DNA from: Microglena sp. YARC
Lineage: Eukaryota > Chlorophyta > Chlorophyceae > Chlamydomonadales > Chlamydomonadaceae
Reading direction: 5' to 3'
Length of the DNA stretch: 64,000 nucleotides
Assembly (NCBI GenBank): GCA_022414725.1
Contig: CM039462.1
Coordinates: 181,885,906-181,949,905, forward strand
The number at the start of each line of letters is the position of its first letter. The stretch's first letter is position 1. The notes under the pieces are model-generated. The model was not told where the DNA came from, did not search any database, and was given only the letters and a program-made list of their open reading frames with translations. A program made the translations under genes and the position numbers. Shown piece by piece: positions 27,545 to 61,110 of the stretch.

Positions 27545-27560
27545 GGTTACGGGCTTATTA
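27545..27560 (+). promoter_or_regulatory. Putative primer binding site of LTR-1
   Basis: GGTTACGGGCTTATTA directly follows the LTR. The sister element reads GGTTATCGGGCTC at the same place. This resembles the copia/Ty5 type of site, which pairs with the anticodon region of a cut tRNA rather than with the CCA end; no TGG start is present. The tRNA partner is not identified. Confidence 0.5.
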
Positions 27561-27579
27561 CTTCTACCACTGCTTTACA

Positions 27580-31343: not shown

Positions 31344-32671
31344 TCGGGAGCCCGGGTGATGATGTAGCCTTTGCCGATAGTGCAAGTGATGATCTTGATC
31401 ATTGGTCAGGCTCCGATACTGCGTATGGCTGGGGTGTTCCGGTCGACCCAGGCTTCGTTGAATTAGAGGCAAATAAGGCCGGCCCTGTTCAACCAGGCAG
31501 TAGTTCTGCACTGGGGGCTCTACTACCGGTTACTGCTGATACTGCTGATATCCCCGCTGCTCATGTACAAGTAAACTGCTTGTACGTGGGAGCATCTGTT
31601 GCCCCCTCCACTGAACTAACCTATAAAGCTGCCATGCTCCCTACCAACCCTGACAGGGATCAATGGCTTCTTGCTATGAAGGATGAGATGGCTTCCCTAC
31701 ATGCCCATGGTACTTGGGTACTCACTCCACAGCCTCGTAAGCAAAAGATCCTGTCAGGCAGGTGGTTATTTGTGAAGAAGATTGGGGTTGATGGTTCTAT
31801 ACGCTTCAAGGCACGTTTTGTGGTACGTGGCTTTCTGCAACGTCCTGGGCTGGATTTTCATGACGTATATGCCCCTGTCTCCTCTAAAGCAGGTCTTCGG
31901 GTGCTCCTGGCTGCCATCACTCATAGAAAGATGTTTGTTCGGCAGCTGGACATCAAAACTGCATTTCTGAACGCTAAGCTGGAACCTGGTCTGGACCTGT
32001 ACTGCCGCCAGCCTGAGGGCTTTCAGCACCTTGGTCCTAACGGTGTTCCCCTTGTGTGCAAGCTGCTCAAGTCTCTTTATGGATTGAAGCAGGCACCCAG
32101 GGCTTGGAGTAGGGATGTCAAGCGGGTTCTGGTTGCACACGGCTTCACTATGTGCAAGGCTGAACCTGCTCTGTATTTTAGGAAGGGTTCTGATGGTGGG
32201 TGGAGCTATGTTCTGACCTATGTTGATGATTTTATCTGTGCTTTTAGTGAGCTGGATAGGTATGTGTTGCTTATCCAGGCTATGGAAAAGGCTGGCTGGG
32301 AGGTCAAAGAGATGGGTGTTCCGGTTCAGTTCCTCTCTTTGGACATGCATGTTACACTTGATTCTGAAGGCAGGTGTGTTCAGATCAACATCTCTCAGCA
32401 CACCTACATTGTTGATCTGGTGGAGCAGTTTGGTCTTACTGATGCTGCCCCACCCAGGTTTGCTGCCCCCATGGCCAAGTCCACCGTTTCTGACGCCCCT
32501 GGAGAACCCCTGCCGTCTAATAGCCAGTACCTCTCTCTTGTGGGTGCTTTGCTATACCTGGCTACTTGCACCAGGCCTGATATTTCTTTTGCTGTGAGCT
32601 ACCTGTCCAGGTTTTCTGCTCACCCTACCGTCCCTCTCTGGGGGCTGCCAAGCGGTTGCTCTTGTATTTGA
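31265..32671 (+). CDS. LTR-1 pol part 2: reverse transcriptase
   Basis: After the shift the frame is open from about 31265. The RT proper begins near 31660 (DQWLLAMKDEMASLHAHGTW) and has WLFVKKIGVDGSIRFKARFV, FDVYAPVS-like HDVYAPVSSKAGLR, LDIKTAFLNAKLE, SLYGLKQAPRAW and the catalytic YVDD (about 32220-32230), all standard Ty1/copia RT motifs. It makes cDNA in the particle. The frame breaks at 32640, where G5 (TGGGGGCTGCC) needs one more G to continue as WGAAKRLLLYLR. Confidence 0.93.
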   Translation, partial: SPCSNHLGWLEGVGERFFPPAVPDRLIGSPGDDVAFADSASDDLDHWSGSDTAYGWGVPVDPGFVELEANKAGPVQPGSSSALGALLPVTADTADIPAAHVQVNCLYVGASVAPSTELTYKAAMLPTNPDRDQWLLAMKDEMASLHAHGTWVLTPQPRKQKILSGRWLFVKKIGVDGSIRFKARFVVRGFLQRPGLDFHDVYAPVSSKAGLRVLLAAITHRKMFVRQLDIKTAFLNAKLEPGLDLYCRQPEGFQHLGPNGVPLVCKLLKSLYGLKQAPRAWSRDVKRVLVAHGFTMCKAEPALYFRKGSDGGWSYVLTYVDDFICAFSELDRYVLLIQAMEKAGWEVKEMGVPVQFLSLDMHVTLDSEGRCVQINISQHTYIVDLVEQFGLTDAAPPRFAAPMAKSTVSDAPGEPLPSNSQYLSLVGALLYLATCTRPDISFAVSYLSRFSAHPTVPLWGLPSGCSCI

Positions 32672-33189
32672 GAACACATTCCCACCTGGGTCTCACTTAC
32701 ACCCACAACCCTGAGTTCTCTTTTACTGTCTTTAGTGACTCATCCTTTGCTGATGATGGGTCTGACAGGCGGTCTCAGACTGGCTTTGCTGTGCTAGCTG
32801 GGGGGTGCATAGTGAACTGGATGAGCAAGAGGCAGCCTACTGTTGCCATTAGCTCTAGTGAGGCTGAGTATCAGGCCCTGTCCCAGGCTGCCAGGGAGGT
32901 ACAATGGTTGAAGAAATTGAGGGTGGATCTGGGTCTGCCTTGTGCTTTGGTTACCATTCAGGGTGACAACTTAGGGTCTCTAAGTTGGGCCAAAGACTGG
33001 CAGCTCCTGCCTCGCAGCAAGCACATTGATGTTATTCATCACTACATCAAGGAGCTGGTGGAGGATGGTTCACTGGATGTTGCCTATGTTAACACCGTGG
33101 ATAACTGTGCTGACCCCTTCACCAAGCCCCTTGATCCTGCTGTGTTCTGGAGGTTTGTCCGCATGTTAGGTATGACCGCTTCTTCTTAG
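32656..33189 (+). CDS. LTR-1 pol part 3: RNase H
   Basis: Continues RT in the next frame: LLLYLRTHSHLGLTY, FSDSSFADDGSDRRSQTGFA (first catalytic D), WMSKRQPTVAISSSEAEYQA (catalytic E), IQGDNLGSLSWAKDWQ (second D) and SKHIDVIHHYIKELV with D in FTKPLD. It degrades the RNA strand during cDNA synthesis. Ends at TAG 33187. Confidence 0.93.
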   Translation: MLLYLRTHSHLGLTYTHNPEFSFTVFSDSSFADDGSDRRSQTGFAVLAGGCIVNWMSKRQPTVAISSSEAEYQALSQAAREVQWLKKLRVDLGLPCALVTIQGDNLGSLSWAKDWQLLPRSKHIDVIHHYIKELVEDGSLDVAYVNTVDNCADPFTKPLDPAVFWRFVRMLGMTASS

Positions 33190-39583: not shown

Positions 39584-40740
39584 ATGAGCTATCCCAACTC
39601 CCAGGCACCATCTCCCAGGCCAGGCTCCAAAACCAATACGGTATACCCTCCCCCCCAGGTGCCCAACAACATCAACAGCCCCTCCCCTGGAACAACTGTT
39701 GGTATGATGCAACCCGCCGCAATGACAGCTAGCAACAACAGGGGGTACCCTCCCCCCCAGGTGCAGGACACCATGAACAACCCTCTACTTTGTATGCCAG
39801 ACTCCAGCATGATCCACCCCCCCCAGATGGCTCCAATCAACAGCACCGGATACCCGCCCCCCCATGAGCAAATCCCAAACATGAATAGCCCCCCTCCAGG
39901 ACCTATTGGTGGCACAAGCCAACCCGCACCCATAACAGGGAGTATCAACATGGCCCCCCCCACTCCCCAGCAGTACACCAACATGGGCCCCCCACTCCCC
40001 AGCAGTACACCAACACAAGAGCCCCCACTCCCCAGCAGTATGCCAATACGGAAGCCCCCACACCCCAGCAATACACCAACACAGGAGCCCCCACTCCCCA
40101 GCAGTACACAAACATGGGGTCCCCCACTTCCCAGCAGTACACCAACATGCAAGTCCCCTCTCCCAAGCAGTACACCAACATGTCAGCCCCCTCTCCCCAG
40201 CAGTACACCAACATGCAAGCCCCCTCTCCCCAGCAGTACACCAACTTGGCTCCCCCCTCTCCCCAGCAGTACACCAGCGTGAGCTACCCCTCCCCAATGG
40301 CAGCTGACACCATGGGTTACTCTTCCCCTCAGATGCCTAACCCCAGCCCTATGAGCCAAAACCCTAGTGGAGGCTTTCCCCCAGGATCTGCGATCCTAAA
40401 CAGGCTCCCCAACTCAAAACAAGTTGTCATTGAGTCCTACTTATCACAGCTTCTTACGCATGTGGGAGACGTGCAGGAACGAGTGTCAGCAGCAGCAGCT
40501 TTGGCCAACATCGGCAGCTTCCTGCCACCGGATCTGAGGTACGAAACCCCTCGTCTCATCTCTGAAGCCGGTATATGGGATGCCTTGGTAGAGGTGCTCA
40601 CGTATGTGCCCTTGGATGAGAATGGGAAGGAGGTGGAGATAGAGCTGTTGGAAGCTGTTGTGATGGCATCCTCCCAGCTACTCACCCAACTGAAGAGCAC
40701 TTCAACAACACAGGGCCAGCTGCGTGTGGCGGAGAATATG
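39584..40740 (+). CDS. Large gene, exon 1: PQQYTNM repeats and helical domain
   Basis: ATG at 39584 (context GCACCATGAG). The first 130 codons are P/S/N/Q-rich (GYPPPQV motifs). Then about ten 33-nt units encode APSPQQYTNMQ. In the middle units the frame is off by one: GGGCCCCCCACT at about 39982-39993 needs one more C to keep PQQYTN. The later frame continues to SAILNRLPNSKQVVIESYLS, then VGDVQERVSAAAALANIGSF and AGIWDALVEVLTYVPLDENG, an armadillo/HEAT-like helical region. It ends in donor GTATGTG. The first exon of an unidentified protein, phase 0 at its end. Confidence 0.75.
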
Positions 40741-42448
40741 GTATGTGTGTATGTATATGTTACACTGCAACAACTAAGGGCCAATTGCGTGTGGCGGAGA
40801 GTATGGTGTGTTTGTATGTATGTGTTTATGTACGTTACACTCCAGGGTTAGGCCGAATAGGCAAACGAGACTTGCCCAACCGTGACAGGAAGGGCTACAA
40901 AGAAAATGCATTGATGAACTGAAGCTGATCTATGATATAAGACACCACCACCACCACACCACCACCACCACCACCCTGAACCACCCTGAACCACCACCCT
41001 TGCACCCTTGCACTACACCACCACCACCACCGCCACCCTGCACCACCACCACTTGCACCACCTCCACCACCACCACACCACCCAGAACCACCACCACTTG
41101 CACCACTTTACCACCACCACCACCGCCACCCTGAACCACCACCACTTGCACCACTTGCACCACCACCACCACCGCCACCATGAGCCACCACAACTTGTAC
41201 CGCCACCACCACCGCCACCCGAACCACCACCACTTGCACCACCACACCACCGCCACCATGAGCCACACCACTTGCACCACACCACCACCACCCTGAACCA
41301 CCACCACTTGCACACTTGTACCACCACACACCACCACTGCCACCTGCACTGCCACCATTACACCACTTGTACCACCTCCACCACCACACCACCACTGCCA
41401 CCCTGAACCACCACCACTTGCACCACGCCACCACCACCGCCACCCTGAACCACCACCACTTGCACCACTTGTACCACCACCACCACCGCCACCCTGAACT
41501 GCCACCACTTACACCACTTGCACCACCAGCACCACCAGCACCACCACCACTGCCACCCTGAACCACTTGCACCACCGCCACCACCACCGCCACCCTGAAC
41601 CACCACCACTTGCACCACTTGTACCACACCACCACTGCCACATCTGAACTGCCACACTTACACCCACTTGCATCACCACCCACCACCACTACCACCCTGA
41701 ACCACTTGCACACCGCCACCACCGCCACCCTGAACCACCACCACACACCGCCACCCTGAACCACCACCGCTTGCACCACTTGTACCACCACCACCACTGC
41801 CACCCTGAACTGCCACCACTTACACCACTTGCACCACCACCACCACCACTGCCACCCTGAACCACCACCACTGCCACCCTGAACCACCACCACTGCCACC
41901 CTGAACCACCACCACTGCCACCACTTGTACCACCACCACCACCCTGAACCACAACCACCATTTACACCACCTCCACCATCACTACCTCCACCACCATAGT
42001 GCTTACAGCACACCAACAAATGTAACCCCGCATCAGGATCCCTCCCCATGGCAGCCAGCACCTTGTTCAGGCTGTTAAACGATTTTCACGGTGTTAAATA
42101 CCTGTCCAGGTTGTTAAACGGGATTTCACCGTGTTAAGTGCCTGTTCAGGTTTTATAACAGGTTTTCAGGGTTTAAAACACCTGTTTAGATTGTGAAACA
42201 GGTGGCCAGGGTGTAAAACACATGTTCAAATTATTAAACAGGTGTTCAGGTTGTTAAAAACCTGCTTGTGTACAAATTGGTTATGCATGTAGCTGTTGAA
42301 CAGGTATTTAACATCCTGGACACCCCTTTAGCACCCTGAACAGGTGCAGGCTGCCGTAGGGCCTACCACCCCCACACTCTTCCCCTCTCCCCCCTTAACC
42401 CCCCCATCCCTACCACTTTCACTTCCATATTTGTAATCATGTATGTAG
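40741..42448 (+). repeat. Intron 1: exon-end copy and minisatellites
   Basis: Copy of the exon 1 end at about 40770-40805 (CAATTGCGTGTGGCGGAGAG, donor GTGTGT). 40940-41990 is a CCACCACCACTTGCACCACT/GCCACCCTGAA minisatellite. 42060-42340 is a 38-40 bp repeat with GTTCAGGTTGTTAAACAGGT. Open frames in these are compositional. Confidence 0.8.
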
Positions 42449-42873
42449 GTACGTGCGATGAGCCTGAAGCTGATCGACCCAGTGGCCTTGGAACAGCTTT
42501 CCTACGTTCTCAAAGCGACGCCTTCCTCTCGCGTCGCCTTTGCCGTTGCTGCTGTGGCAGTAGCGGTGGCAGAGTCAAGCGACGCTTTTGACGACCGCAT
42601 CATTTTGGACGGCACCTTTCCTGAAACACTGCTGGGGGCTGTGGATCAGAGCTCTCAGGAGTACCACATCCGTGACAGCATGGCATGTGCTGTTGCCGCC
42701 ATGCATTTGGCTTGGTCCTCATCAGACAGCTTCACATCCATCTGGAAGCTAGGTTTCCTCCGCGCCTTGTGCATACTCTACGAGCGCAGCATTGACCCGG
42801 AAACTGAGTCGGACAACGTTTCTGGAGCTGATGTTATAAGCCTCATGCTCAGAGCCTTGAGGCTAGAGCCGTG
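42449..42873 (+). CDS. Large gene, exon 2
   Basis: Acceptor GTATGTAG, 425 nt, phase 0 start. Encodes MSLKLIDPVALEQLSYVLKA, VAFAVAAVAVAVAESSDAFD, HIRDSMACAVAAMHLAWSSS and DVISLMLRALRLEPW, again helical. Donor at CCGTG|GTACGG gives phase 2, which fits the first base of exon 3. A longer splice form using TACG|GTATCT would not fit exon 3. Confidence 0.8.
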
Positions 42874-42946
42874 GTACGGTATCTTTCTGTGTATGTATTC
42901 ATGTATGTATGTGTGCATGCATGCGTGTTTGTATGTTACAGTCCAG

Positions 42947-43082
42947 GGAGTAGTCGACCTGGCTTCCTCTGTGCCTTGTGCATGCTCTACCAGTGCAGCA
43001 TTAACCCGGAAACTGAGTCCGACAACGTTTTTGGAGCTGATGTTACAAGCCTCATGCTCAGAGCCTTGAGGCTAGAACCTTG
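42947..43082 (+). pseudogene. Duplicate of the end of exon 2
   Basis: Acceptor TTACAGTCCAG, then GFLCALCMLYQCSINPETES and GADVTSLMLRALRLEPW, about 85% like the end of exon 2 and with the same donor GTACGGTATC. Its entry phase seems not to fit, so it is likely not used, but it keeps an open frame. Confidence 0.75.
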
Positions 43083-44640
43083 GTACGGTATCTTTCTGTG
43101 TATGTATGTATGTATGTATGTATGTATGTATGTACTAGTACAGTAGCCCGTGTGGCCGGTGGCCACACCTACTCTCACTCTCAAGACCCCCCCCCCCCCC
43201 CCCCCCCCCCAATCATAGTACGGTGCCCGTTTGGCCTTTGGCCACACCTATTTGGGGCTGGTTACATAATGGTTTACACTTTGAAGCCCCCCCTCATTCA
43301 CACACCACCACCACAAACCATTATCCGCCCCTCCCCCCTCCCCTCCTGTTGGCCACATCTGTTTTGGGCTGGGTTGCAAAACGGTTTTCTCTGCAGTGCA
43401 TGCCACTTAAAACATTGAACGGACGCATATCCCTCCCCCCACCCCACCCCCAGTTATCTCCACCCCCCCACACACCCAACCATGTACCCCACCCACAAAC
43501 ATACTCCTTATTCTTCCTGATATATTTCCTGACTCCATCCTTTATTCCCTTCCCACCCAGCCATCCCACCCAGCCCCCACCCTCTCCCCACTCTCATCCT
43601 CCCTCCTCCCTCCTACACGCACCCACCAGCACACATACTCCATATCTGCCTCCCTCTACTTCAGCTGTGGGCTTTGCCATAGCTGAAAGGCAAACGGGAC
43701 GAAGAGCATCGACAACGTTTGCGCATCATCCGACTCCGCTAAAAGCATCGGACCTGCTTCCCTGCCACCTCAGCTGTGATCGATAGTCGACCCCACTGAA
43801 AAAGCTGAACCTGCGCAATCGCGACTGTACATAACTAAAGCTTCTTCTTAGCGAGCTTGTATTCAGTTCGGCCGAAGAACAATCCTGTTCACCGCAACTG
43901 CTCCCGAAGTCAACTCAACCTGAGACTTGGAAACATCGCTAGGTTCATCCATTCAACTTTGCCGCGTGCTCGCTATAGCAAAATGCACAGCAACGACATA
44001 ATTCTCGATGCAGTGGGAAGAAGTTGCAGTCAAGTTGCTGATTTGAGATGTTCAGTCAAGTTAGGGCGAGAATACTCAGCGAAATTTTTCATTCAATCAA
44101 CTTTGATGCGTACTTGCTATGGCACAAAGCGGAGCGACATGTTTCTCAATGCAGTGGGATGAATTTGCAGTCAAGTTTGTGACATGGGATGGATGCGATT
44201 CGGACATTTCTGAGAGGTCCGCTGACTCACCACGTCACCTCCCGTTGTGCGCAGCGACAGGTCTCTTGACGCAAGGGAAAGGTCTTGCAGAGATGCAGGG
44301 GGAAAAGCTTGTAGGGAGACGAACTGCAGCGCTACCGAAATCAGGTGGATGAACTCAGGCGGGAAAAGGAGAAATCGGGCGGGATGCGCAACAGGTAGAA
44401 TACGCAGGAGGCGAAGGTTGCATAAGGCAGAATTCGCAGGAGGCCAAATCAGGCAGAAGTTGAAGCAGGAGGGATTAAAAGCCGGAATTGGCTGAGTGGG
44501 AATTGGCTGGGCGGGAAGTCGGTTATAATAAGTCGGTTACGCGATGACACCACCACGACCGCGACCACGACCACAACCACGACCACCATGATTTCTTTAT
44601 ATATATAGATGTATGTATGTATGTTACAGTCCAGAGGGCA
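43083..44640 (+). repeat. Intron 2: TATG run and scattered duplicates
   Basis: (TATG)n at 43098-43135; three copies of GGCC(T/G)(T/G)TGGCCACACCTA (43150, 43229, 43350). A poly-C run lies at 43187-43210. A two-copy 130-bp repeat at 43945-44180 shares TTCATTCAATCAACTTTG-like and ATTCTCGATGCAGTGGGA-like blocks. 44360-44480 holds GGAGGCGAA and GGCAGAA repeats. No exon is supported. Confidence 0.6.
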
Positions 44641-45447
44641 GCCAACTACTCGATTTCAGGACAAAAAAAGGAGCCCATACCAAGATCAGCTCCAGTAAAT
44701 GCTTCCTTGAGGAGGCCACTATTCCTTCAACTCTCTGCAACCTGGTTGCGGGGGTCAATTCTCCTTGAAATCCCTGCAAACTGACCCCAATCCATTGTAT
44801 TCCCCTTTCAAAACCTCCAGGACAAAATGGATCCAAGTCAAGAAGGGCTCCTGTAACCCTTGGTTGCGGGGGTCAATTCTCCTTGAAATCCCTGCAAACT
44901 GACCCCAATCCATTGTATTCCCTTTTCAAAGCCTCCAAGACAATATGGGCCCAAGTCAAAAAGGGCTCCAGTAAACCCTTCGTTTTGGGGGGTAATTCTC
45001 CTTGAAATCCCTGCAAACTGACCCCGATCCATTGTATTCCCTTTTCAAAACCTCCAGGACAAAATGGGCCCAAGTCAAGAAGGGCTCCAGTACACCCTTC
45101 GTTGCGGGGGTCAATTCTCCTTGAAATCCCTGCAAACTGACCCCAATCCATTGTATTCCCTTTTCAAAACCTCCAGGACAAAAAAGGAGCCCAGGCCAAG
45201 GAGGACTCCAGTAACTGCTTCCTTGAGGACGCCACTATTTCTTCAACTCTCTGCAACCTTGAATCAACTTCCCCTCAATTTCCCCTTGAATTCTCCAAAT
45301 CTTCTTCACATATGAATGCTTGCTCCAGTAAACGCTTCCTTGAAGAGAACAATATTCCTTCAACTCTCTACAGCCTGCAACCTGTACCTTCCCCTCAACT
45401 CCTCCACATCTTCTTCACGCACTCATACTTGCGCACACAAATTCCAG
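44641..45447 (+). repeat. Intron 2 end: copies of the exon 3 acceptor edge
   Basis: Six or seven units of 110-140 bp (about 44665, 44821, 44936, 45057, 45177 and 45325). Each carries CAAAACCTCCAG, GACAAAATGGGCCCAAGTCA and AGAAGGGCTCCAGTAA, that is the acceptor and first 30-40 nt of exon 3, followed by GGGGGTCAATTCTCCTTGAA intron sequence. Confidence 0.85.
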
Positions 45448-45633
45448 GATAAAGTGGGCCCAAGTGAAAAAGGGCTCCAGTAAACGCTTTCTTGAGGAGG
45501 AGCTGTTGGCCAGCAATGTGATTGAGTGCCTTATGTCCTTCATGACAATCCAATCCACTTCTCTGAACCTGAGCATCACTGGGGTGGCAGAGCAGGCAGC
45601 TCGACTTGTGGACGCTATTGCTGATGATACCAA
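45448..45633 (+). CDS. Large gene, exon 3
   Basis: Acceptor AAATTCCAG, 186 nt. Encodes KWAQVKKGSSKRFLEEELLA, SNVIECLMSFMTIQSTSLNL and SITGVAEQAARLVDAIADDT. Donor AA|GTGCGT. Entry needs two bases from exon 2 (TG+G = Trp) and exit leaves two (AA), matching both neighbours. Confidence 0.8.
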
Positions 45634-46130
45634 GTGCGTTCTTCTGTATTATGTGTGTTTGCTTGTTGAATGCATGTTGTACATGAAATCATGAACATTC
45701 AGTCCGCATCTATGAACACGAGCATCAGTGGGGTGGCAGAGGAGACAGCTCTACTTGTGAACGCTATTGCTGATGATACCAAGTGCGTTCTCCTGTATTT
45801 TGCGTGTTTGCTTGTTTGTTGAGTGCCTCATGTTGTCGTTCAAGAGATCAGGACCATCCAATACACATCTCTGGACCTGAGCATCACTGGGGTTGCAGAA
45901 GAGGCAGCTTGACTTGTGGACGCTATTGCTGACAATACCAGGTGCGTTCTCCTGTATAATGTTTGTTTGCCTGTTGACTGCATGTTGTTCATGAAATCAT
46001 GAACATTCAGTCCGCATCTATGAACCTGAGCATCAGTGGGGTTGCAGAGCAGGCAGCTCGACTTGTGGACGCTGTTGCTGATGATACCAAGTGCGTTCTC
46101 CTGTATTATGTGTTTTTGCCTGTTGAGTGT
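45634..46130 (+). repeat. Intron 3: three copies of the exon 3 end plus donor
   Basis: Copies at 45701-45781, 45848-45938 and 46004-46092. Each encodes SGVAEQAARLVDAVADDT-like sequence and keeps AA|GTGCGTTCTCCTGTAT or close. One has an in-frame TGA. Spacing is about 150 bp. Confidence 0.85.
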
Positions 46131-46896
46131 CTGTCACACACACACTCTCACACATACACTCACACAAACACACTATCGCACACACACTCTCACACAAACA
46201 CTCACACACACACACTATCGCACACAGACTCTCACACACACACACACACTCTCTCACACACACTCTCGCACACACACTCACACACACACTCACACACACA
46301 CTCTTGCACACACTCTCACACACATGCTCTCTCACACACACACTCACACACTCTTGCACACACACTCTTTCTCATATGCTCTTACATACACACTCACACT
46401 CTCTCACACACACTCTCACACAGATGCTCTCTCACACACACACACTCTCTCTCACACACACTCTCACACACAAGCTCTCTCCCCCCCCCCCCCCACCCCC
46501 CCCCCACACACACACTCAAACACACACAGTCACACACACACACTCTCACGCACAGACTCAAACACACACACTCACACACATGCACTCAAACACACACTCT
46601 AACACAAACAAACTCTCACACACACACTCTCACACAAACTCACTCACACACACACTCAAACACTCAAACACAGACACACTCACACACACTCTCTCACACA
46701 CACACACACTCAAACACACACACTCTCACACACGCACTCAAACACACACATGCAAACACACACACACACACACGCTGTCACCCAAACACACTCTCACTGA
46801 CACACTCAAGCACACACACACACATACACACACACTAAAACACACACATTCAAACTCACGAATGCCCCCCCCCCCCCCCCCCCCCTCCCTCTCCAG
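46131..46896 (+). repeat. (ACACTC)n microsatellite and poly-C
   Basis: CA/CT repeats of about 730 bp with poly-C at 46482-46504 and 46865-46885, directly before the exon 4 acceptor. Thr/His/Ser frames here are compositional. Confidence 0.9.
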
Positions 46897-47025
46897 CACT
46901 GAGCTTGAGGACATTGACAAGAGCCTGTTGGATGTGCGCAAGGAGCTAATTCACACAAAGGAAGATGTGGAGCAAACAGTTCCACAGGAGGACGACACAT
47001 ACAGTGCACAGGCCAGCACATACAG
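46897..47025 (+). CDS. Large gene, exon 4 (coiled-coil-like)
   Basis: Acceptor CCCTCTCCAG, 129 nt. Encodes TELEDIDKSLLDVRKELIHT, KEDVEQTVPQEDDTYSAQAS and TY. Rich in charged residues and Leu, consistent with a coiled coil. Donor AG|GTGAAG, phase 2, fits exon 5 (AG+G = Arg). Confidence 0.8.
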
Positions 47026-47454
47026 GTGAAGGTAGCGTGTGGGTATGTTGGTGTGGGTGTGCCCCCCCCCCCCCCTCCCCCCCCCCCCCCCCCCACACAC
47101 ACACACTGTGACACATACAGTGCACATGCCAGCACATAAAGGTAGGGTGAAGCTAGCGTGTTGGTGTGGGTGTGGGCCCCCCCCCACGCACACACTGTAA
47201 CACATACAGTGCACATGCCAGCACCTACAGGTAGGGTGAAGCTAGCATGTGGGTGTGGGTGTGGGCACCCCACACACACACATACAGTGCACAGGCCAGC
47301 ACCTACAGGTAGGGTGAAGCTAGCGCGTGGGTGTGGGTGTGGGTGTGCTCCCCCCCCCCCCCTCCCTCCCCCTCCCCTCCCCCCACACACTGCGACACAT
47401 ACAGTGCACAGGCCAGCACCTATAGGTAGGGTGAAGCTAGCTTGTGGGTGTGGG

Positions 47455-47494
<40 letters not shown>

Positions 47495-47570
47495 CCTCCC
47501 CCCTCCCCCCTCCCCCCCACACACTGCGACACATACAGAGCACAGGCCATCACCTACAGGAAGGGTGAAG
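47026..47570 (+). repeat. Intron 4: five copies of the exon 4 end plus donor
   Basis: CACATACAGTGCACAGGCCA, GCACCTACAG and donor GTAGGGTGAAGCTAGC repeat at about 47110, 47203, 47280, 47395 and 47528, separated by poly-C/GTGTGGG tracts of varying length. Confidence 0.85.
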
Positions 47571-49057
47571 TTAGCCCCCACTTAAGTTAGCCCCCACTTA
47601 AGTTAGCCCCCACTTACCTAAACACTAAACCCACCTAGACCCTGAGCATGAAACCGGAAACCTGGGTCATTTCACTGCCACCAACAGGAAGGGTGAAGTT
47701 AGACCCCACTTAAGTTAGCCCCCACTTAACTAGACACTAAACCCACCTAGATCCTAAACCCTAAACCCCAAAACCTTTGAATCAAATCCTAAGCCACTAA
47801 ACCCTACCCCCCCTAAAGCACCTTATGCTAACTGGGGGCTAACTTAAGTGGAGGCTAACTTACCCCCACACGCAACTGGGCTGTGGATGATGTGGTGTGT
47901 GTGTTAGGATTTGTTGTGTGTGTGTGTGTGGGGTGGGGTGGGGGGGTGGGGGGGCACACACACTGCAACACATATAGTGCACAGGAAGGGAAAAGGTAGC
48001 TAACTTCCCCCCCCACCGCACCTACAGGGCTGTGGATGATGCAGTGGGTGGATAGTGGGTATGTGTGTTCATGGGGGGGGGGGGGGGGGGGGGCTAAGTT
48101 AGCTACCTTTTCCTTACCTATACTATATAAGTGTCGCAGTGTGTGTGGGGGTTGGTGCCCCACCCCCACCCACCCACTGCATCATCCACAGCCCTGTAGG
48201 TGCAGTGGGGGGGGGAAGTTAGCTACCTTTTCCTTACCTATACTATATATGTGTCGCAGTGTGTGCCCCCCCCCCCCCCCCCCCACTGCATCACAGGGCT
48301 GTGGATGATGCACTGGGTGGGTAGTGTGTGTTTGTGGGGGTGGGGTGGGTGGGTAGATGGGGGGGGGGCACCCACCCCCACATGCACTGCGGCACATATA
48401 TTGCACAAGTAGGTAAAAGGTAGCTAACTCCCCTCCCACCACATCTACATGGCTGTGGATGATGCAGAGATGAAGTGTACAGGTCTAACTTGAGTGGGGG
48501 CTGACTTCACCCCCACCCACCCACCCACCACACCCACCGCACCGACAACATCTACATGGCTGTGGATGATGAAGAGATGAAGTGTACAGGTCTAACTTGA
48601 GTGGGGGCTGACTTCACCCCCACCCACCCACCCACCGCACCACATCTACATGGCTGTGGATGATGCAGAGATGAAGTGTACAGGTCTAACTGGAGTGGGG
48701 GCTGACTTCACCCCCACCCACCCACCCACCGCACCACATCTACATGGCTGTGGATGATGCAGAGATGAAGTGTACAGGTCTAACTTGAGTTGGGGATACC
48801 CTCCCCCCACCACCCCCCCATCCCCACCCCACCCACCGCACTGCACCCACAGGGCTGTGGATGACGCAGGGATAAAGTGTACAGATCACACACGCACGCA
48901 CACACGCTTAATTCCTAGATCTTAGGGTTTAGGGTTTAGAATCAAATCCTTAACCACTGAACCCTAAACCCCTTAAACTGAAGTCCCCTAAACTTAACCC
49001 CCCTAAAACACCTTAACTTAATTCCCCCCTGCACCTAATTCCCAACCGCACCTACAG
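47571..49057 (+). repeat. Intron 4: copies of the exon 5 acceptor edge, TTTAGGG runs
   Basis: About nine units with (CTACAG|A)GGCTGTGGATGATGCAG and AGATGAAGTGTACAGGTCTA at about 47878, 48030, 48298, 48450, 48557, 48653, 48745, 48853, plus an inverted partial copy at 48178-48200. Between them lie GTTAGCCCCCACTTAA repeats and CCTAAACCCTAAACC/TTAGGGTTTAGGG stretches (47745-47775, 48920-48940). Confidence 0.85.
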
Positions 49058-49160
49058 GGCTGTGGATGATGCCGAGATGAAGTGTACAGGTCTACGCTTG
49101 GAAAGAACTATGCTGAAAAAAAGGAGGGAGGAACTTTGGGACCAGATGGACTTCTTAGAG
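49058..49160 (+). CDS. Large gene, exon 5
   Basis: Acceptor CGCACCTACAG, 103 nt. Encodes AVDDAEMKCTGLRLERTMLK and KRREELWDQMDFLE, coiled-coil-like. Donor GTAATAAT in phase 0, which fits exon 6. Confidence 0.8.
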
Positions 49161-50363
49161 GTAATAATTATGTTAGGGGGAAGCTAGTCCGGGGTTTAGG
49201 GTTTATGGGGTTTAGGGTTGAACAGTCTCCCCCGGACTGGCTCCCTCTGGACTAGCTTCCCCCTACCAATAATTCTGGGCCGTCAGTGCCACAATTAACT
49301 ATTGAGGAAATTTGGGACCAGATGGACTTCTTGGAGGTTATCATTATGGGCTGCCAGTGCCACCATTAACTATTGAGGAAATTTGGAACCAGAAGGACTT
49401 CTTGGAGGTAATAATTCTTGGCTGTCAGTGTCACTATAAACTATTGAGGAAATTTGGGACCAGATAGACTTCTTGGAGGTAATCATCCTGGGCTAGTTTT
49501 AGGGTTTTAGGGTTTAGGGTTCGTGTTTAGGGTATCTTCTTGGAGGTTCAGGGGAATATAAATCCCTGCCACCAACATAATGCATTAAACTGCCAAACCC
49601 CTACAGTTGACCCAGCACTGACTACATTGGGTACATTAGCTGGGTACTAAGACTGCCTACATACTGGGCACCCAGACATAGGCTACACTGGGTTCATTCT
49701 CCTTCATTTGACTTGACTTGACTTCAATTCAATTCAATTCGGCTTGACTTCACTTCACTTCGACTTGACTTGACTTCAACTTGACTTGACGTGGCTTGAT
49801 TTCCGCTTGACCCTTGGGCTTGGAGGATGCCTTTTAGGGTGATTCCCTTTTGATTAGTGACCTGGGTAAAAGTGTTCATATTATTTTCCATGTTTGACTA
49901 CCAGATGCAGCCAAAGCATGCAGACCACATTGGACTAAGTTGCTCACGCTAACCAACTGCCTTGTACCACCTAAACCACCTAAACCCCTGCATTCGGCCT
50001 GACACTGGGGCCCGGAAGAAATTCAAAGCATGCTGACCACATTGGACTAAGTTGCTCATGCTAACCAACTGCCTTGTACCTTCCATACCACCAACAGAAT
50101 GCTTTAAACCACCTAAAACCCTACATTCGGCCTGCCACTGGGGCTCGGAAGAAATTCAGAGCATGCTGACCACATTGGACTAGGTTGCTCACGCTAACCA
50201 ACTGCCTTGTACCTTCCATACCACCAACAGAATGCTTTAAACCACCTAAAACCCTACATTCGGCCTGCCACTGGGGCTCGGAAGAAATTCAGAGCATGCT
50301 GACCACATTGGACTAGGTTGCTCACGCTAACCAACTGCCTTGTACCTTCCATACCACCAACAG
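49161..50363 (+). repeat. Intron 5: exon 5 end copies, then exon 6 start copies
   Basis: 49300-49480 has three copies of ATTGAGGAAATTTGGGACCA plus GATGGACTTCTTGGAG and GTAATC/GTTATC donors. 49191-49220 and 49497-49535 have TTTAGGG runs. 49690-49800 has CAATTCAATTC and TTGACTTGACTT repeats. 49980-50363 has three 122-bp units with CATACCACCAACAG, AATGCTTTAAACCACCTAAA and GGAAGAAATTC, that is the acceptor and first 60 nt of exon 6. Confidence 0.85.
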
Positions 50364-50528
50364 AATGCTTTAAACCGTTTAAACCCCTACATCCGGCCTG
50401 ACACTGGGGCCCGGAAGAAAGTAAAGATCGGAAAGCCGAACCTGGAGACATTGAGTGAGGTGTTGCTGTTTACGCAACAGCTTGCTAAACCCAGTGCAGC
50501 TACACTGAAGGGTGATGAGACTGATCAG
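50364..50528 (+). CDS. Large gene, exon 6
   Basis: Acceptor ACCACCAACAG, 165 nt (55 codons, phase 0 both ends). Encodes NALNRLNPYIRPDTGARKKV, KIGKPNLETLSEVLLFTQQL and AKPSAATLKGDETDQ. Donor GTGAGG. Its last 48 nt are repeated as exons 7 and 8. Confidence 0.8.
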
Positions 50529-50599
50529 GTGAGGTGCTCAATTTGTTTTGGAAGTAATTATATTGCTATATGGTTTTGATTATATTGTTTTATCAACAG

Positions 50600-50647
50600 A
50601 TTGCTAAACCCAGTGCACATACACTAAACGGTGGCGAGACTGATCAG
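50600..50647 (+). CDS. Large gene, exon 7 (48-nt duplicate exon)
   Basis: Acceptor TTTATCAACAG and donor GTGAGG; 48 nt encode IAKPSAHTLNGGETDQ. It is a copy of the end of exon 6, phase 0 on both sides, so including it adds 16 residues without a frame change. Confidence 0.7.
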
Positions 50648-50732
50648 GTGAGGATCTCAATTTTTTTTTGTTGTGATTGCATTGTTATTCGATTTATAAT
50701 ATATTTTTTATATTATATTGTTTTGTCAACAG

Positions 50733-50780
50733 CTTGCAAAAACCAGTGCAGCTACACTAAAGGGTGACGAGACTGACAAG
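50733..50780 (+). CDS. Large gene, exon 8 (48-nt duplicate exon)
   Basis: Acceptor TTTTGTCAACAG and donor GTGAGG; 48 nt encode LAKTSAATLKGDETDK. Like exon 7 it is symmetrical and open. These two are the clearest cases where exon-end copies could be used as real exons. Confidence 0.7.
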
Positions 50781-51511
50781 GTGAGGATTTTTTATTATAT
50801 TGTTATGTGGTTTTGATTGTATTGTTATATTGTTTTGATTGTATTGTTCTTATTCTATTTATAAATTCCAACCTCAGACAATCAAGGTTAAAGAAGAAAA
50901 AAAGATAAATACATAATATGCCCTATTACGAGGCATGAAGTTGAAGGGGCCAGCCCGTTTGCTTGCACTGGGGCCAACACAAATCATCTTATTATCATTG
51001 TCCCATTTCATGCCTGGCTACGGCATAAAATCCACAGCCACATGCTGAACGGTGGTTTCATGTTTGAATACTCGAGATCAAAGTAAAAAAATACAAATTA
51101 AGTATCATCCTCTCTTTATGTCACATTTCAGGCCTGGAGATGCCGCAAAATACACCTCAAGTGGTTTGGTTTGGTTTGGTTGGGATGCCGCAAAATACAC
51201 AGCCGCATGCTGAACAGTGGCTTCATGCTTGCATTATCAAGGTCAAAGTTTAATATACTTAAACGTTTGTTTTTTTTGTCCCATTTCAAGCCTGGAGGCG
51301 CCATAAGATACACAGCCACATGCATAAGAGTAGTTTCATGTTTAAATGATTAAGTTCAAAGTTAAATGTAGTTACATCTTATATGTATGCCCCATTTCAG
51401 GCCTGGAGGTGCCGCAAGATATACAGCTGCATGTTGAACAGTGGCTTCATGTTTAAATGATTAAGGTCAAAGTTAAATGTAGTAAGATCTTGTATTTATG
51501 CCCCATTTCAG
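50781..51511 (+). repeat. Intron 8: copies of the exon 9 acceptor edge
   Basis: Four units spaced about 110 bp (51132, 51184, 51290 and 51401), each with ATTTCAG (or a variant), GCCTGGAGGTGCCGCAARAT, ACACAGC and a partial GCATGCTGAACAGTGGCTTC, then diverging. Confidence 0.85.
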
Positions 51512-51729
51512 GCCTGGAGGTGCCGCAAAATACACAGCCGCATGCTGAACAGCGGTTTCATGCTAGCTAACGTCCGTTTGCTATCCTCCCTTGCTGACCT
51601 GCGCCAGCTGTCTGTTGAGCTGGCATCCCTAGTGGCAGGCCTGCGCCTCGCATCTCACATCGGAGGCCTCATGACAGCATGCAAGTCCAGCCTGGCAGCT
51701 GACCTGTCAGACATGCGCAGGCAGTCTGG
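51512..51729 (+). CDS. Large gene, exon 9
   Basis: Acceptor CCCATTTCAG, 218 nt, phase 0. Encodes AWRCRKIHSRMLNSGFMLAN, VRLLSSLADLRQLSVELASL, VAGLRLASHIGGLMTACKSS and LAADLSDMRRQSG, strongly helical. Donor TCTGG|GTTTGT, phase 2, joins exon 10 (GG+G = Gly). Without splicing a stop follows ten bases later (51737), so this could also be a terminal exon. Confidence 0.75.
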
Positions 51730-51992
51730 GTTTGTTTAGTTTTTCAGTTGAGGAATCCATGAAGGAACAGGATCGGGCTTTCAAGGCTCTTTCCATCAGG
51801 TACTTATACTAAGGTGTTGTTGTCAACCACGAATGTAGCTTGTCCAGTTGAGGTAGAAGACCGCTCTCTACCCGCGTACGGCAGGTTCCCTTAACACCAC
51901 GCCCCACCAGTTATCATCACCTTTTTATACTAAGGTGTCACACAGGTCACACAGGAGATTTTTCACTGGTCACACATTGGTCCTTCCAAATT

Positions 51993-52215
51993 GGGTCTCA
52001 CACATTGGGTCTCACACATTGGGTCTCACACATTGGGTCTCACACATTGGGTCTCACACATTGGGTCTCACACATTGGGTCTCACACATTGGGTCTCACA
52101 CATTGGGTCTCACACATTGGGTCTCACACATTGGGTCTCACACATTGGGTCTCACACATTGGGTCTCACACATTGGGTCTCACACATTGGGTCTCACACA
52201 TTGGGTCTCACAATT
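51993..52215 (+). repeat. 14-bp tandem repeat TGGGTCTCACACAT
   Basis: About 15 perfect units. As 14 is not a multiple of three, all frames read the same 14-residue pattern. Diverged 45-60 bp repeats with AAGGTCTCACACAGATCACA continue to about 53150. All lie in intron 9. Confidence 0.95.
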
Positions 52216-53159
52216 GCATTGGGGTCTCACAAATTGGGTCTCACACATTGGGTCTCTTTCAAGGCTCTTTCCATTAGGTGAAGTATTAGGTTTTTAGTAT
52301 AAGGTGTCACCCTTGTATGTCAACTAGAAGGTCTCATACAGATTAAATTTCTTTCAAAGATCACATTTCTTTCAAGGCTCTTTCCAGAAGGTGCAGTATT
52401 AGGTCCCACACAGTTCACACAGGGCTTTCAAGGCTCTTACTATCAGGTGCAATATTAGGAAGAGGAATGAGGCACAGGTTGGGGTCTTGAGGTCACGCAT
52501 TGGGTCTCACACATATCACACATGAGGTGTTGCACAGGTCACACATTGGGTCTCACACATATCACACATGAGGTTTTACACAGGTCACACAGGGTTTTCA
52601 TGGCTCTTTTCATGAGGTGCAGTATTAAATGTCACACAGATCACACATGAGGTTTTCCACAGGTCACACATTGGCTCACAACACATTGGGTATCACCATC
52701 AGGTGCAGTAATAGGTCCTAAACTTGAACTTGGTTACTTAGCTTCAGCCAGCAATTTGGTTGCTTGCACTCTTAGGCAGTAAAATTTTCCAGGAAAATGT
52801 AAACGTGAACAATTTTTGTCTCCATGAGGTGCAGTATTAGGTGTCACACTTGAGGTTGAACTATAAGGTCTCACACAGATCACTCTTGAGGTTTTACACA
52901 GGTCACACAGGGCTTTCAAGACTCTTACGATCAGGTACAGTATAATATCTCACACTTGAACATGAACTATATGGTCTCACACAGATCACACTTGAACATG
53001 AACTATAAGGTCTCACACAGATCACACTTGAGGTTGAACTATAAGGTCTCACACAGATCACACTTGAACTTGGACTATAAAGTCTCACACAAATCACACA
53101 TTAGATTTTGCACAGGTCACACATTGGGTCTCACACAGATCACACACATCCTCCTTTAA

Positions 53160-55170
53160 GCCTAGCTAAATTCTCTCTCCCCTTATACTGCTCAATATTC
53201 TGTTTCTTAAAACCGAAAAAATATACTAACTCCGTGTGCAGGTCACCTGGACCTCTAAAATCTCTCTCCCCTTTTCTAGTCAATATTCTGTTTCTTAAAA
53301 ACGAAAAATATATACTAACTCCTTGTACAGGTCACCAAGACCTCTAAAATATTTCCCCCCTTTTCCTTTGTCAATATTCTGTTTCTTAAAAACGAAAAAT
53401 ATATACTAACTCCAGGGAACTTCGAAGCAAAAATACACCATCCCTCAACTTTGTAGATTTCATTGAGAGGATGAAGAATTAGGTTTTATTTTCTTGATTT
53501 GGCCCAGTAGAAAAAAAGTGTTGGTCCTCCAAAGTTTGGGCCGCGGGGGGAGGGGGAGGGGGGGGTCGAGGAGAAAATTCTGCATTTTCCAAAAAATTAG
53601 GTACTTTTCAGGCACTTTTTTTCTAGCCCTCAGAATGACATGGGGAGTTGGAACTAGGATGTTCCTGTACTAATACCAGTCCATATATGCTATTGGGGGA
53701 GAGATCCACCACATATTTATACCCAGGGCAGAGGGGGGAGGAGGTGGGTGGGGTGTGTGTGTGGGGGGGGGGGGGGGGGGGGGGGGTCCACACATGCAAT
53801 CTGTGCACCCAGGCCAGCAACTCAGCGAGGACGACATCAATCAATTATCTCTCTGAAGGTGGCTGAGTTTAAGGGGTGGTTGCCAAGGATGTCAATGTCA
53901 GAGGGCGTGAGCAGTGTGAGCAAAGGGAGCGAGCTTAAGTGCGGCTTGAGGCATTCCTAGCAGACGCGCCGGCTTTGTTCTGGAGAATGGTGGTCGATGA
54001 CGTCACCAACTAAGACCACATGTTGTAAAGGACAACATTGTGCCCTTCAGCCAAACATACATTAGTGATTATTGAAGACATGATTGTTTAATGCCTGATT
54101 GAAGCTTGGATTGAAGACCTGGTTATTGAATACCTGATTATTGGGTATTGAAGGTGGGCACATTAGGGGGCCAAGTGGCCCTGACCCCAAGCCAACCAAA
54201 CAATGGAACATTGATGATGATGATTTTCTATGCTTCACACATCCCCAATGGACTCGAGAACAACCTCAATGGATAGGCCTTTAAAAACCCTGTAATATGA
54301 GCATAATTAGACACCATAACCCTAGGTGATTGCTGAAATACTAGCTGTACAGTGGGTTCCGGAGCCGGGGGGGGGGGGTCTGCTGAAGGGTGCCTCAGCA
54401 CTTTTTGGGGATGGTGTATTTCACTTTTGTTTGCCCCCCCCCCTTGACTAACTCCTGGTGCAGGTCACCTAGACCTCTACAAACGCTCTCCCCTTTTTCT
54501 AGTCAATATTAAGTTTCTTAAAAACAAAATAATAAACTACCTCCTTGTACAGGTCACCAAGACCTCTAAAATTTCCCCCCCCTTTTCCTGGTCTATGTCC
54601 AGTTTCTTAAAAACAAAAAATACACTACCTACGGTAGTACAAGTCACCTAGGCCTCTAAAATCTCTCTTCCCTTTTCCCGGCCAATATTCAGTTTCATAA
54701 AAACAAATAATATACTATCTCCTGGTGTAGGTCACCTAGACCTCTAAAATCTCGCCCCTTTTCCTGGTCAATATTCTTTCTTAAAAACAAAGCATCAGAC
54801 TACCTAGCGCGAAAACACGTAGACCTCTAAAATCTCCCTCCCTTTTCCTGGTCAATATTCTGTTCCTTATAAACGAAAAATATACTACCTCCGTGTACAG
54901 GTCACCAAGAGGAAACAGAGACAACCATGTTGAGCTTACATTGGAGAACACTCTCTCTGCCTTTGTTCCATAACTTGAATTTGATCTTACATAGCTTCAG
55001 CCAGCAATTTGAACTTACATAGCTTGAATTTGAGCTTACATAACTTGAATTTGATCTTACATAGCTTCAGCCAGCAATTTGGCTGCTCACCATGTTCGGC
55101 AGTAAAAAAACAAATTATCAGGAAAATGTAAACGCGAGCAAATATTTGTTTTCTTCTTTTTCAATTTCAG
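53160..55170 (+). repeat. Intron 9: copies of the exon 10 acceptor edge
   Basis: Units of about 85-95 bp with AATATTCTGTTTCTTAAAAA, CGAAAAATATA, TACAG, GTCACC(A/T)AGACCTCTAAAA. At least seven copies lie at about 53240, 53330, 54465, 54560, 54647, 54729 and a longer one at 54898-54960 that extends 60 nt into exon 10. Also here are the second 200-bp dispersed repeat (53420-53620), a poly-G run (53763-53786) and a two-copy CTTCAGCCAGCAATTTG repeat. Confidence 0.8.
53420..53620 (+). repeat. Dispersed 200-bp repeat, copy 2
   Basis: Same ordered blocks as 20310-20510, including GGCCCAGTAGAAAAAAAGTG and TTCCAAAAAATTAGGTACTT. Confidence 0.8.
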
Positions 55171-55435
55171 GTCACCAAGAGGAAACAGAGACAACCACGT
55201 TGAGCTTACATCAGAGAACACTCTCTCTGCTTTTGTCCGAGCAGAGGACATCGAACACAGGCTACCTGCCTTGTCGGCTGAGCTCACCCTGTTGGCGCTA
55301 GCTAAGGAGGACATTAACCATACCTGTGTCATGCTGGGGCAGCAAAGTGCAGAAGCTGCAAAGAAAACTGGCGAGCTGAAGGAAGCTGGGAAGCGGTTTT
55401 GAAGGTGTTCCCTCTATCCTCTCTCAGGCCCCAAA
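55171..55435 (+). CDS. Large gene, exon 10 (coiled-coil-like)
   Basis: Acceptor TTTTCAATTTCAG. Encodes SPRGNRDNHVELTSENTLSA, FVRAEDIEHRLPALSAELTL, LALAKEDINHTCVMLGQQSA and EAAKKTGELKEAGKRF. Then a stop (TGA, 55400-55402) appears where two later copies suggest one more base (GGTTTGTGAAGG against GGTTTTGAAGG). The original exon probably ended near 55435 (AAGACG|GTACGT). Downstream copies at about 55620-55685 and 55865-55925 repeat GAAGCTGGGAAGCGGTTTG. Confidence 0.65.
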
Positions 55436-56394
55436 GACGGTACGTCTTTATATAAAGACTAGTTTAATATTTTTCTTATATATAAAGACCTAGTTTATAT
55501 ATTTTCCTTTATATATAAAGACTAGTTTATATATTTCTTTATATATAAAGACATAGTTTATATATTTCTTTATATAGACTGTTGCAAATATACAAAGCAA
55601 TAGGAGAGCCGTAGGAATCTGGGAAGCGGTTGGTATTTCTGAAGTGTGCTTCCCTCAACCTTCTCTCAGGCTTCAAGACGGTACTTTCTACAAGTACATG
55701 CCCCACATCATAGATGCCATTGATTATAGCTGGTCATCATAGAGACATAGGAGGGATTCCTATTTGACCTACCCCTGACTGTAAAATACATAATACATAC
55801 ATACATACATACCATAACATACATACATACATACATACATACATACATGGCAAAGAAATCAAAGCAGAATATGAGAGCTGAAGGAAGCTGGGAAAGCGGT
55901 TTGTGAAGGTGCTCCCCTCCACCCTTTCACAGCAGTAAAAAAACTGCACTTTTTAAAATTTACTCGGGTTCATGTACCACCATACACACACATAAATACT
56001 TTACATCACTGCTGACCTATCTCTTCCCCTGCAGGCCACGTCCACTCCCCCCTCACCTGCACCTACGGGTTCATGTACCATTCATACACACACATAATAC
56101 TTACAGTCACTGCTGACCTATCTCTTCCCCTGCAGGCCACGTCCACTCCCCCCTCACCTGCACCTACGGGTTCATGTACCATTCAACACCACGCAATAAA
56201 CTTACAGTCACTGTGACCTATCTCTTCCCCTGCAGGCCACGTCCACATACACCCTCACCTGCACCTACGGGGTTGTACCCACTTACATACACACATATAG
56301 TACTTACAGTCATGCTGACCCTATGCTCTTCCCGCTGCAGGCACGTCCACTCCCCCCTTCACTGCACCTACGGGTTATGTACATTCATACACAC
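55436..56394 (+). repeat. Intron 10: exon-edge copies and simple repeats
   Basis: 55445-55580 has four 30-bp TATATAAAGACTAGTTTATA units; 55790-55850 is (CATA)n. 56030-56394 has four 100-bp units with CTCTTCCCCTGCAG, GCCACGTCCACTCCCCCCTC, ACCTGCACCTACGGGTTCAT, probably acceptor-edge copies of the next exon (ATSTPPSPAPTG), which lies in or beyond the gap. Confidence 0.75.
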
Positions 56395-60346: not shown

Positions 60347-60538
60347 CTGTCAATGCCTCGTCCCAATCCGTCAAATCCGACAATGGGACTGATAACGATG
60401 AGAAGATATGTCGGCAGAGTGTGGCGACTGGCGATTTTTCTCGCTTTACCTCTTCCATATCTCTTCGCAACTCCGGTCGTGATGCGGTTTCAGCAGCTAG
60501 CACTTGCAAGTTTTGGAGACAGGCCTCTGTGGACTCCC
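60347..60538 (-). CDS. Exon of an unidentified minus-strand gene
   Basis: Acceptor TCACCTTCACAG at 60539. Encodes ESTEACLQNLQVLAAETASR, PELRRDMEEVKREKSPVATL and CRHIFSSLSVPLSDLTDWDE, then a possible donor GTAACA at 60346. Without that donor the frame runs to a stop at 60201. The mix of helical and charged residues looks like a real protein; the family is not recognised. Arrays of its acceptor edge lie upstream. Confidence 0.6.
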
Positions 60539-60539
60539 C

Positions 60540-61110
60540 TGTGAAGGTGAGGGGAGGGAGGGAGGGTGTGTGTGTCGTGGTGGTGGTGGTGGTGGTGGTG
60601 GTGGTGGGTGAGCAGTGTGGCATTTGGTGCACGTGGGGTAAATGTGGGGTTGCGAGTGCATGTGGTGCATGTGGGGTGTTTGCAGTGCAAGTTTTGGAGA
60701 CAGGCCTCTGTGGACTCCCCTGTGAAGGTGAGGGGAGGGAGGGAGGGAGGGTGTGTGGTGGTGGTGGTGGTGATGGTGGGTGACCAGTGTGCATTTGGTG
60801 CACGTGGGGTATGGGGTGTGGGGTGCATGGTGTGCATGTTGGGTGTTTGCAGTGCAGGTTTTGAAGGCAGGCCTCTGTGGACTCTCGCTGTGAAGGTGAG
60901 GGGAGGGAGGGAGGGAGGGAGGGAGGGAGGGAGGGAGTGTGGTGTGTGTGTGTGTGTGTGTGTGTGTTGGGGGGGGTGGGGGGGGGACAGTGTGCATTTG
61001 GTGCCGTGGGGTGTGTGGTGCATGTTGGGTGTGCAGTGGATGTGGTGCATGTGGGGTGTTTGCAGTGGCAGGTTTTGGAGACAGGCCTCTGTGGACTGTC
61101 CTTGTGAAGG
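60540..61110 (-). repeat. Copies of acceptor plus exon start
   Basis: Three copies (about 60686-60725, 60850-60895 and 61065-61110) of the first 37 nt of the 60347-60538 exon with its acceptor, encoding STEACLQNLHC. Spacers are GGGAGGGAGGG, GGTGGTGG and GTGCATGTGGGGTGTTTGCA repeats. Confidence 0.85.

Follow-up and report, generated by a model that had tools for sequence, protein, structure and literature searches.

Tandem copies of exon edges and splice sites in the introns of Microglena sp. YARC probably reflect local duplication blind to genes

The 64,000-nucleotide (nt) stretch of Microglena sp. YARC DNA analysed here (the window, meaning the whole stretch; contig CM039462.1, positions 181,885,906 to 181,949,905) contains, at window positions 39584-56394 of the plus strand, a gene whose introns hold array upon array of copies of the gene's own exon edges, most of which still carry a splice site. 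This focal stretch was analysed by reading, Tandem Repeats Finder, forward-frame translation and self-alignment, using a model of nine exons and 17 splice junctions whose numbering differs slightly from that of an earlier note on the same DNA. Similar copies were found in other genes of this 568-Mb genome, and we describe below their geometry, their decay and the duplication process from which they may have arisen.

The focal exons are taken as protein-coding because they have open frames, splice sites and a third-position bias in the differences between each exon and its copies (P = 1.2e-4, sites non-independent); the third codon position is the most different in seven of the nine exons. The protein matched no Pfam family above cut-off, and no relative was found in the protein collection searched. 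Exon 1 includes a coding minisatellite (39946-40276) with a 33-nt unit reading approximately APTPQQYTNMG, inside which the open frame shifts by one; one of its units is 32 nt long by hand count, and the shift is either an indel or a base error in a C run. The 17-nt ‘intron 7’ (51731-51747) is doubtful and may be an indel instead. Long homopolymer runs and two gaps of 1000 bases are also present in the window.

Self-alignment detected same-strand local copies of an exon edge plus its splice site in the adjoining intron at 12 of the 17 focal junctions (Table 1), where a junction was counted as copied if the copy ran across the splice dinucleotide and took in a minimum of 10-12 nt of the exon. 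These junctions are donors 1, 2, 3, 4, 5, 6, 8 and 9 and acceptors 3, 5, 7 and 9; donor 7 and acceptors 2, 4, 6 and 8 have no copies. Eight of nine introns are involved (counting the stretch past exon 9 as an intron), and nine of the 17 junctions are retained under the strictest settings (8-10 intron bases aligned, or 20 exon plus 5 intron bases). Controls using reversed sequence, reverse-complement sequence or the sequence of one other locus gave 0/17 junctions. With the exception of the internal repeat block of exon 1 (39623-40296), all copied exon stretches abut a junction. The earlier note had described edge-copy arrays in nearly every intron of this gene, tandem in arrangement, mostly keeping the splice site and grading out inside the exon, and the self-alignment bears out each of these features; the array that it placed before exon 6 is present as well, but was not scored, as it enters that exon by a mere 3 nt. 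When 251 bases of the array preceding exon 3 served as a probe, in a search of the genome that skips very common words, the one match was its own locus.

Table 1. Exons of the focal gene, copies of exon edges in its introns, and a second gene of the window (window coordinates; a slash marks a splice junction)
Feature	Position	Strand	Remarks
Exon 1	39584..40740	+	Proline-rich N-terminus, then LNRLPNSKQVVIESYL...; contains the 33-nt coding minisatellite
Exon 2	42449..42873	+	Open frame and self-alignment
Exon 3	45448..45633	+	Open frame and self-alignment
Exon 4	46897..47025	+	Open frame and self-alignment
Exon 5	49058..49160	+	Open frame and self-alignment
Exon 6	50418..50528	+	Open frame and self-alignment
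Exon 7	51512..51730	+	3' end uncertain; 17-nt gap to exon 8 likewise uncertain
Exon 8	51748..51799	+	Acceptor uncertain
Exon 9	55171..55395	+	Open frame and self-alignment
Exon 1 last 43 nt, donor and 21 nt of intron, one copy	40763..40826	+	86% identical
Exon 2 last 122 nt, donor and 50 nt of intron, one copy	42961..43132	+	90% identical
119-nt array, four copies	44745..45215	+	Three align as AG acceptor plus 36-53 nt of exon 3
Exon 3 last 94 nt and donor, three copies	45689..46129	+	Alignments 80-89% identical
Exon 4 last 31-33 nt and donor, four aligned copies	47110..47575	+	
Acceptor and first 15-37 nt of exon 5, six copies	48011..48887	+	
Exon 5 last 33 nt and donor, three copies	49304..49521	+	
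133-nt array up to exon 6 acceptor	49912..50420	+	Reaches just 3 nt into exon; not scored as a junction copy
Exon 6 last 62 nt and donor, two copies	50586..50859	+	
Acceptor and first 24-51 nt of exon 7, four copies	50985..51451	+	
Exon 8 last 25 nt and 2 nt of donor, weak copy	52422..52448	+	Second copy at 52910-52938
89-nt array with CAG/GTCACC	54447..54966	+	End (54898-54966) is acceptor plus first 66 nt of exon 9, 94% identical
Exon 9 last 23-26 nt and donor, two copies	55603..55932	+	Copies at 55603-55684 and 55875-55932
101-nt array of CTGCAG/GCCACGTCC... units entering gap	55965..56394	+	Acceptor-type by look; exon lost in gap, unconfirmed
Second window gene: exon end TGAAG/GTGAGG at 60546, three downstream copies	60505..61109	+	Copy junctions at 60727, 60895 and 61109

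Whole-genome searches for two protein families, chaperonin (PF00118, 64 hits) and kinesin (PF00225, 128 hits), supplied 13 homology-chosen loci, comprising six of about 11 chaperonin clusters and seven of many kinesin clusters. These were picked from the hit tables as compact multi-exon clusters, which may have biased the counts, and for L026, L029, L032 and L033 the tables already showed truncated second hits. Outside the focal gene, family positions, the reading frame and the splice consensus guided the placement of exon edges, in most cases without the gain or loss of a single residue; junctions with an unplaceable edge were dropped, examples being a whole exon of L025, one acceptor each of L028, L032, L034 and L035, one donor of L035 and the first exon of L033. 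Stops interrupt the reading frame in L027 (exons 3 and 4) and in L023 (exon 5), and are read as indels or mis-set edges. The chaperonin locus L024 (C2:52780600-52789700) has, at oriented donor 4429, a GC-AG intron (ATCAG/GCAAGT) with an otherwise full donor consensus and reading-frame support.

Thirteen further stretches, each of 10 kb, were taken at round positions on five contigs. Genes in the retrieved stretches were located with a codon score, which served no other purpose. Tandem repeats with periods of at least 30 nt cover 0 to 66% of these stretches, and edge copies were found in three of the four that were examined closely: at a GH127 exon (L017), at an SppA exon (L013) and in SMC2 (L018). 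The identity of SMC2 was confirmed by a gap-free alignment to solved SMC2 chains that spans one join between two exons, and by its best relatives, which are 65-69% identical over 95-98% of the joined sequence. Copies are also present at both edges of one exon in L006, a stretch adjoining the window. L018, L013, L006 and L017 were noticed through their arrays or coding look, and the weight of the background test given below is borne by the 13 family-chosen loci alone.

Copies were scored at 44 of the 88 junctions in the 13 family-chosen loci (donors 19/49, acceptors 25/39), and at 0/88 in each control (reversed, reverse-complemented or other-locus sequence); across all 18 loci, 68 of 132 junctions carry them. 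The bases covered by the reversed control amount to 0.00-0.05 in 12 of the 13 loci. The earlier note implied that the pattern was special to one gene, a view that does not hold up: the 12/17 of the focal gene compares with the 44/88 of the homology-chosen genes at a Fisher P of 0.18, and copies are seen elsewhere too.

The 177 junction copies in the 18 loci all lie on the intron side of their junction, 87/87 donor copies downstream and 90/90 acceptor copies upstream, and a reverse-complement control on 14 loci gave 0/105 junctions; the copies are thus in direct orientation. This intron-side geometry argues for direct tandem duplication across the exon border, since scattered insertion would not give it. 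The median copy comprises 50-60 nt of exon and 30-47 nt of intron, the nearest copy is offset by a median of 172.5 nt, and neighbouring copies are spaced about 120-210 nt apart. Median identity to the parent junction is 84% for donor and 86% for acceptor copies; the upper decile of all retained self-matches is at 93%.

Copying fades with depth into the exon. When the complete exons of the 13 loci are divided into 20-nt steps from the nearest edge, copies cover 0.54, 0.50, 0.45, 0.37, 0.23 and 0.17 of the bases in successive steps, and 0.05 beyond 120 nt. Not one whole-exon copy with both splice sites was found for the 53 complete exons, and in short exons 0/16 copies reach the far edge, against the 4.4 expected from long exons.

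The intronic copies (hereafter decoys) and their parent exons differ at codon positions 1, 2 and 3 by 0.100, 0.084 and 0.178 in the 13 loci (chi-square P = 9e-30) and by 0.099, 0.074 and 0.160 in the focal gene (chi-square P = 1e-4), the sites being non-independent in both cases; SMC2 and SppA together follow the same trend (0.092, 0.069 and 0.153), which is non-significant (P = 0.08). Differences between one decoy and another are 0.159, 0.117 and 0.173 in the 13 loci, and 0.124, 0.111 and 0.132 in the focal gene. Because the third-position bias is strong between parent and decoy and much weaker between decoys, the parent exon appears to be constrained and the decoys largely not. Offsets modulo 3 (55, 51 and 45 for 151 copies in 16 loci) are spread over the three phases, and so give no sign of frame selection. 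Splice dinucleotides are kept at 276 of 302 decoy bases (0.914, versus 0.823 for intron flank), with GT present in 64/79 and AG in 63/72 of the copies that align past the junction, a requirement that biases the retention upward; the neutral expectation is ∼0.91 (0.912 by hand arithmetic) if the parent dinucleotide is fixed. In sum, the decoys look near-neutral.

Among 55 introns with both ends placed (median length of tested introns, 1157 nt), three have repeats of the exon tail or exon head at the opposite intron end with a score of at least 6, where ∼0.3 would be expected from permuted pairs. The signature is strong in a kinesin intron of L031 (C1:150602043 to 150600259, minus strand), which has TGTGCCGTACAG on both sides, and weaker in L030 intron 2 (oriented 2318-4056) and focal intron 4 (window 47026-49057); judged by these repeats, the three introns are candidates for birth by tandem duplication. 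The remaining 52 of the 55 do not show the signature. The earlier note had pointed to tandem duplication as a known way of creating introns, apparently continuing along the gene; with one strong signature and two weaker ones among the 55 introns tested, new introns may occasionally come out of the process, which mainly lengthens existing ones.

Taken together, we consider it very likely that these arrays come from a genome-wide process of local tandem duplication that is blind to genes and is filtered by selection for one intact acceptor-exon-donor unit. Under this reading, small direct tandem duplications would arise locally and at a high rate in the genome, by polymerase slippage or perhaps unequal exchange, at positions and with lengths largely unrelated to genes. 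Those falling within exons would be purged by selection, and those in introns would persist; a duplication straddling an exon edge would leave the true exon in place and add to the intron side a decoy, formed by the edge together with its splice site, and would be tolerated about as well as a purely intronic one. Repeated rounds of duplication, together with unequal exchange, could then build arrays, whose decoys would presumably be spliced out with the intron and would decay as near-neutral DNA. The simplest reason for such tolerance may be exon definition, in which a lone decoy site without a partner would be ignored and a copy of a whole exon would be recognised; the lack of whole-exon copies hints at this.

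The alternative that survives best, although we regard it as unlikely, is that duplications are targeted to junctions, being seeded at splice sites by, for instance, breaks or R-loops linked to transcription or splicing. The earlier note likewise implied that repeat units overlap junctions beyond chance, and named overlap at no more than the chance level, in a genome-wide test, as a result that would refute it; the 13 family-chosen loci come close to that result. In these loci 44 junctions are copied, where random intron positions would yield 40.8 (P = 0.27) and those lying outside short-period repeats 47.1 (P = 0.79). Sixteen of the 18 loci have an intron background, and their pooled count is 65, versus 62.5 expected from intron positions outside short-period repeats (P = 0.35). 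Circular shifts of the focal gene alone gave P = 0.25 in one of three masked settings and P = 0.25-0.78 unmasked. Finally, the copied-base share at exon edges (within 20 nt) in the 13 loci, 0.47-0.51, equals the 0.48-0.51 measured 100-300 nt into the intron.

Several observations weigh against duplication that is blind to genes, and the first of them favour junction targeting. When all intron positions are used, the pooled count of 65 exceeds the expected 53.1 (P = 0.016), an excess that is gone outside short-period repeats; in a preliminary pass over 11 loci the P value was 0.009 pooled, 0.054 once the focal gene was left out and 0.32 for the chaperonins. Two of the three masked settings of the circular-shift test on the focal gene gave P = 0.025-0.032, and in this gene, which has copies at 12 of its 17 junctions, 0.715 of the first 20 exon bases are copied, versus 0.50-0.64 in the intron. 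In the 13 loci, the edge share lies slightly above that of intron 20-100 nt away, where it dips to 0.40-0.41. Other points concern the supporting arguments: the short-exon comparison involves few, non-independent copies, 12 of the 16 being from the focal gene; the second codon position is the lowest in decoy-decoy comparisons of the 13 loci (0.117 versus 0.159 and 0.173), where pure neutrality predicts no such difference unless base composition explains it; the reversed-sequence control covers 0.20 of the bases of L032, though zero junctions; and the evidence is the genome sequence of a single species, sampled at 18 loci and 132 junctions. We conclude that copying is about as frequent at exon edges as among other intron bases, with a modest excess at most. 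On the background tests, junction targeting is not needed to explain the counts, and a slight excess is still possible.

It is very improbable that some transcripts use the copies as exon parts, whether alternative or mutually exclusive, even though splice dinucleotides survive in most scored decoys: with no whole-exon copy over 53 exons, none carries both sites, the offsets fall in all three phases, and there is little codon constraint among decoys. An assembly artefact, in which repeats around exons were collapsed or falsely expanded, could draw on signs of imperfect base quality (the homopolymer runs, the two 1000-base gaps and the apparent indels in the frames of L027 and L023), and we hold it to be extremely unlikely, given that copies differ from their parents by ∼15% at the median and that neither the uniform intron-side geometry nor the third-position bias would be expected of it. 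Introners are known to give rise to repeated sequence in introns (PMC9860276). That they, as mobile intron-like elements, or another dispersed repeat put the units into these introns has next to no chance, as the units are locus-specific exon edges, the one unit probed matches its own locus only, and 14 loci each compared with one other share 0.00-0.02 of bases and zero junctions; locus-private units contradict such an origin for the tested loci.

Stretches with element-like open reading frames (ORFs) give a hint, and no more than that, that arrays may build up slowly. Arrays are nearly nil in L011 and L012 (0.01 and 0.00), which are viral or retroelement-like by the look of their ORFs, a near-absence that would fit arrays needing time to accumulate; L016 and L022 also have element-like ORFs, yet their arrays reach 0.33 each. 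The ORFs of L012 (C1:50000001-50010000) at 515-1378 and 2642-4018 of the minus strand resemble, by eye, a giant-virus RNA polymerase subunit 9 and a helicase, and this stretch has almost no minisatellites.

Some further features were observed in passing. The window contains at 27481-33189 what looks like a Copia-like retroelement, with stretches in several frames, for which Tandem Repeats Finder lists one short array (27972-28012, at the printed threshold). In the upstream flank of the window, 99-nt tandem arrays at L009 9513-10000 and L008 37-247 have the appearance of ankyrin-type repeats. A plastid-type S20 gene in the genome supports a host that is probably plastid-bearing.

Somewhat tentatively, and with a little less than even confidence, we suggest that nature has run a saturation experiment on the choice of splice sites in this genome: roughly one in two sampled junctions faces 1-7 recognisable decoys that share its exonic context, usually have an intact GT or AG, and are seemingly neither purged nor kept. 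If the decoys are ignored in complementary DNA, the splicing machinery of this lineage must use strict exon definition, and the decoys would also serve as a neutral yardstick, within the same genome, for constraint on exons, and as a running record of intron growth and rare intron birth. With junction-crossing duplications apparently a genome-wide background, the lengthening of introns, the frequency of new ones, the disregard of the spliceosome for copies of its sites and the rate at which decoys decay would all be countable in one genome. The arrays also carry a warning for annotation, as homology searches yield truncated false exons next to real ones, visible by eye in some of the listed kinesin and chaperonin hits. 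For example, a kinesin match of 191-296 at C2:15919754 is followed by matches of 251-296 and 243-296, and ahead of a minus-strand kinesin match of 264-326 at C1:145291615 come matches of 263-309 and 264-318.

Tandem arrays with units of about 30-200 nt are familiar within introns as intronic minisatellites; the units described here differ in that many of them extend over exon ends and splice-site sequence, and copies of this kind sit at about half of the junctions tested. Internal gene duplication, reportedly described by Gao and Lynch in 2009 as common and as giving rise to introns and exons in various genomes, resembles the present case in consisting of small within-gene duplications able to include splice sites; it is not known to have been reported as decoy arrays at half of all junctions. 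Introners (PMC9860276) share with these arrays the presence of repeated sequence in many introns of one genome but insert in many genes, whereas each unit tested here belongs to a single locus.

The closest likeness is to direct tandem duplications over an intron-exon boundary that copy the splice signals. In a potato RdRp gene, such a duplication extends over the border between intron 1 and exon 2; the same paper also cites an intron in which 83 bp were duplicated to no effect, and fission-yeast genes in which a 24-bp exonic segment is present several times (PMC4974935). The AGGT model of intron creation is among the topics reviewed in PMC3443670. The potato gene and the other cases considered here from these two sources concern single genes and are mostly noted for a new intron, and no report of junction-spanning decoy arrays on such a scale, at about half of junctions, was present among the matches listed in the open-access literature. 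Junction-crossing tandem duplications have thus been published as single notable cases; in this genome they are apparently a genome-wide background, with decayed copies at 68 of 132 junctions, one real junction kept while the intron grows, and just three of 55 introns that look new.

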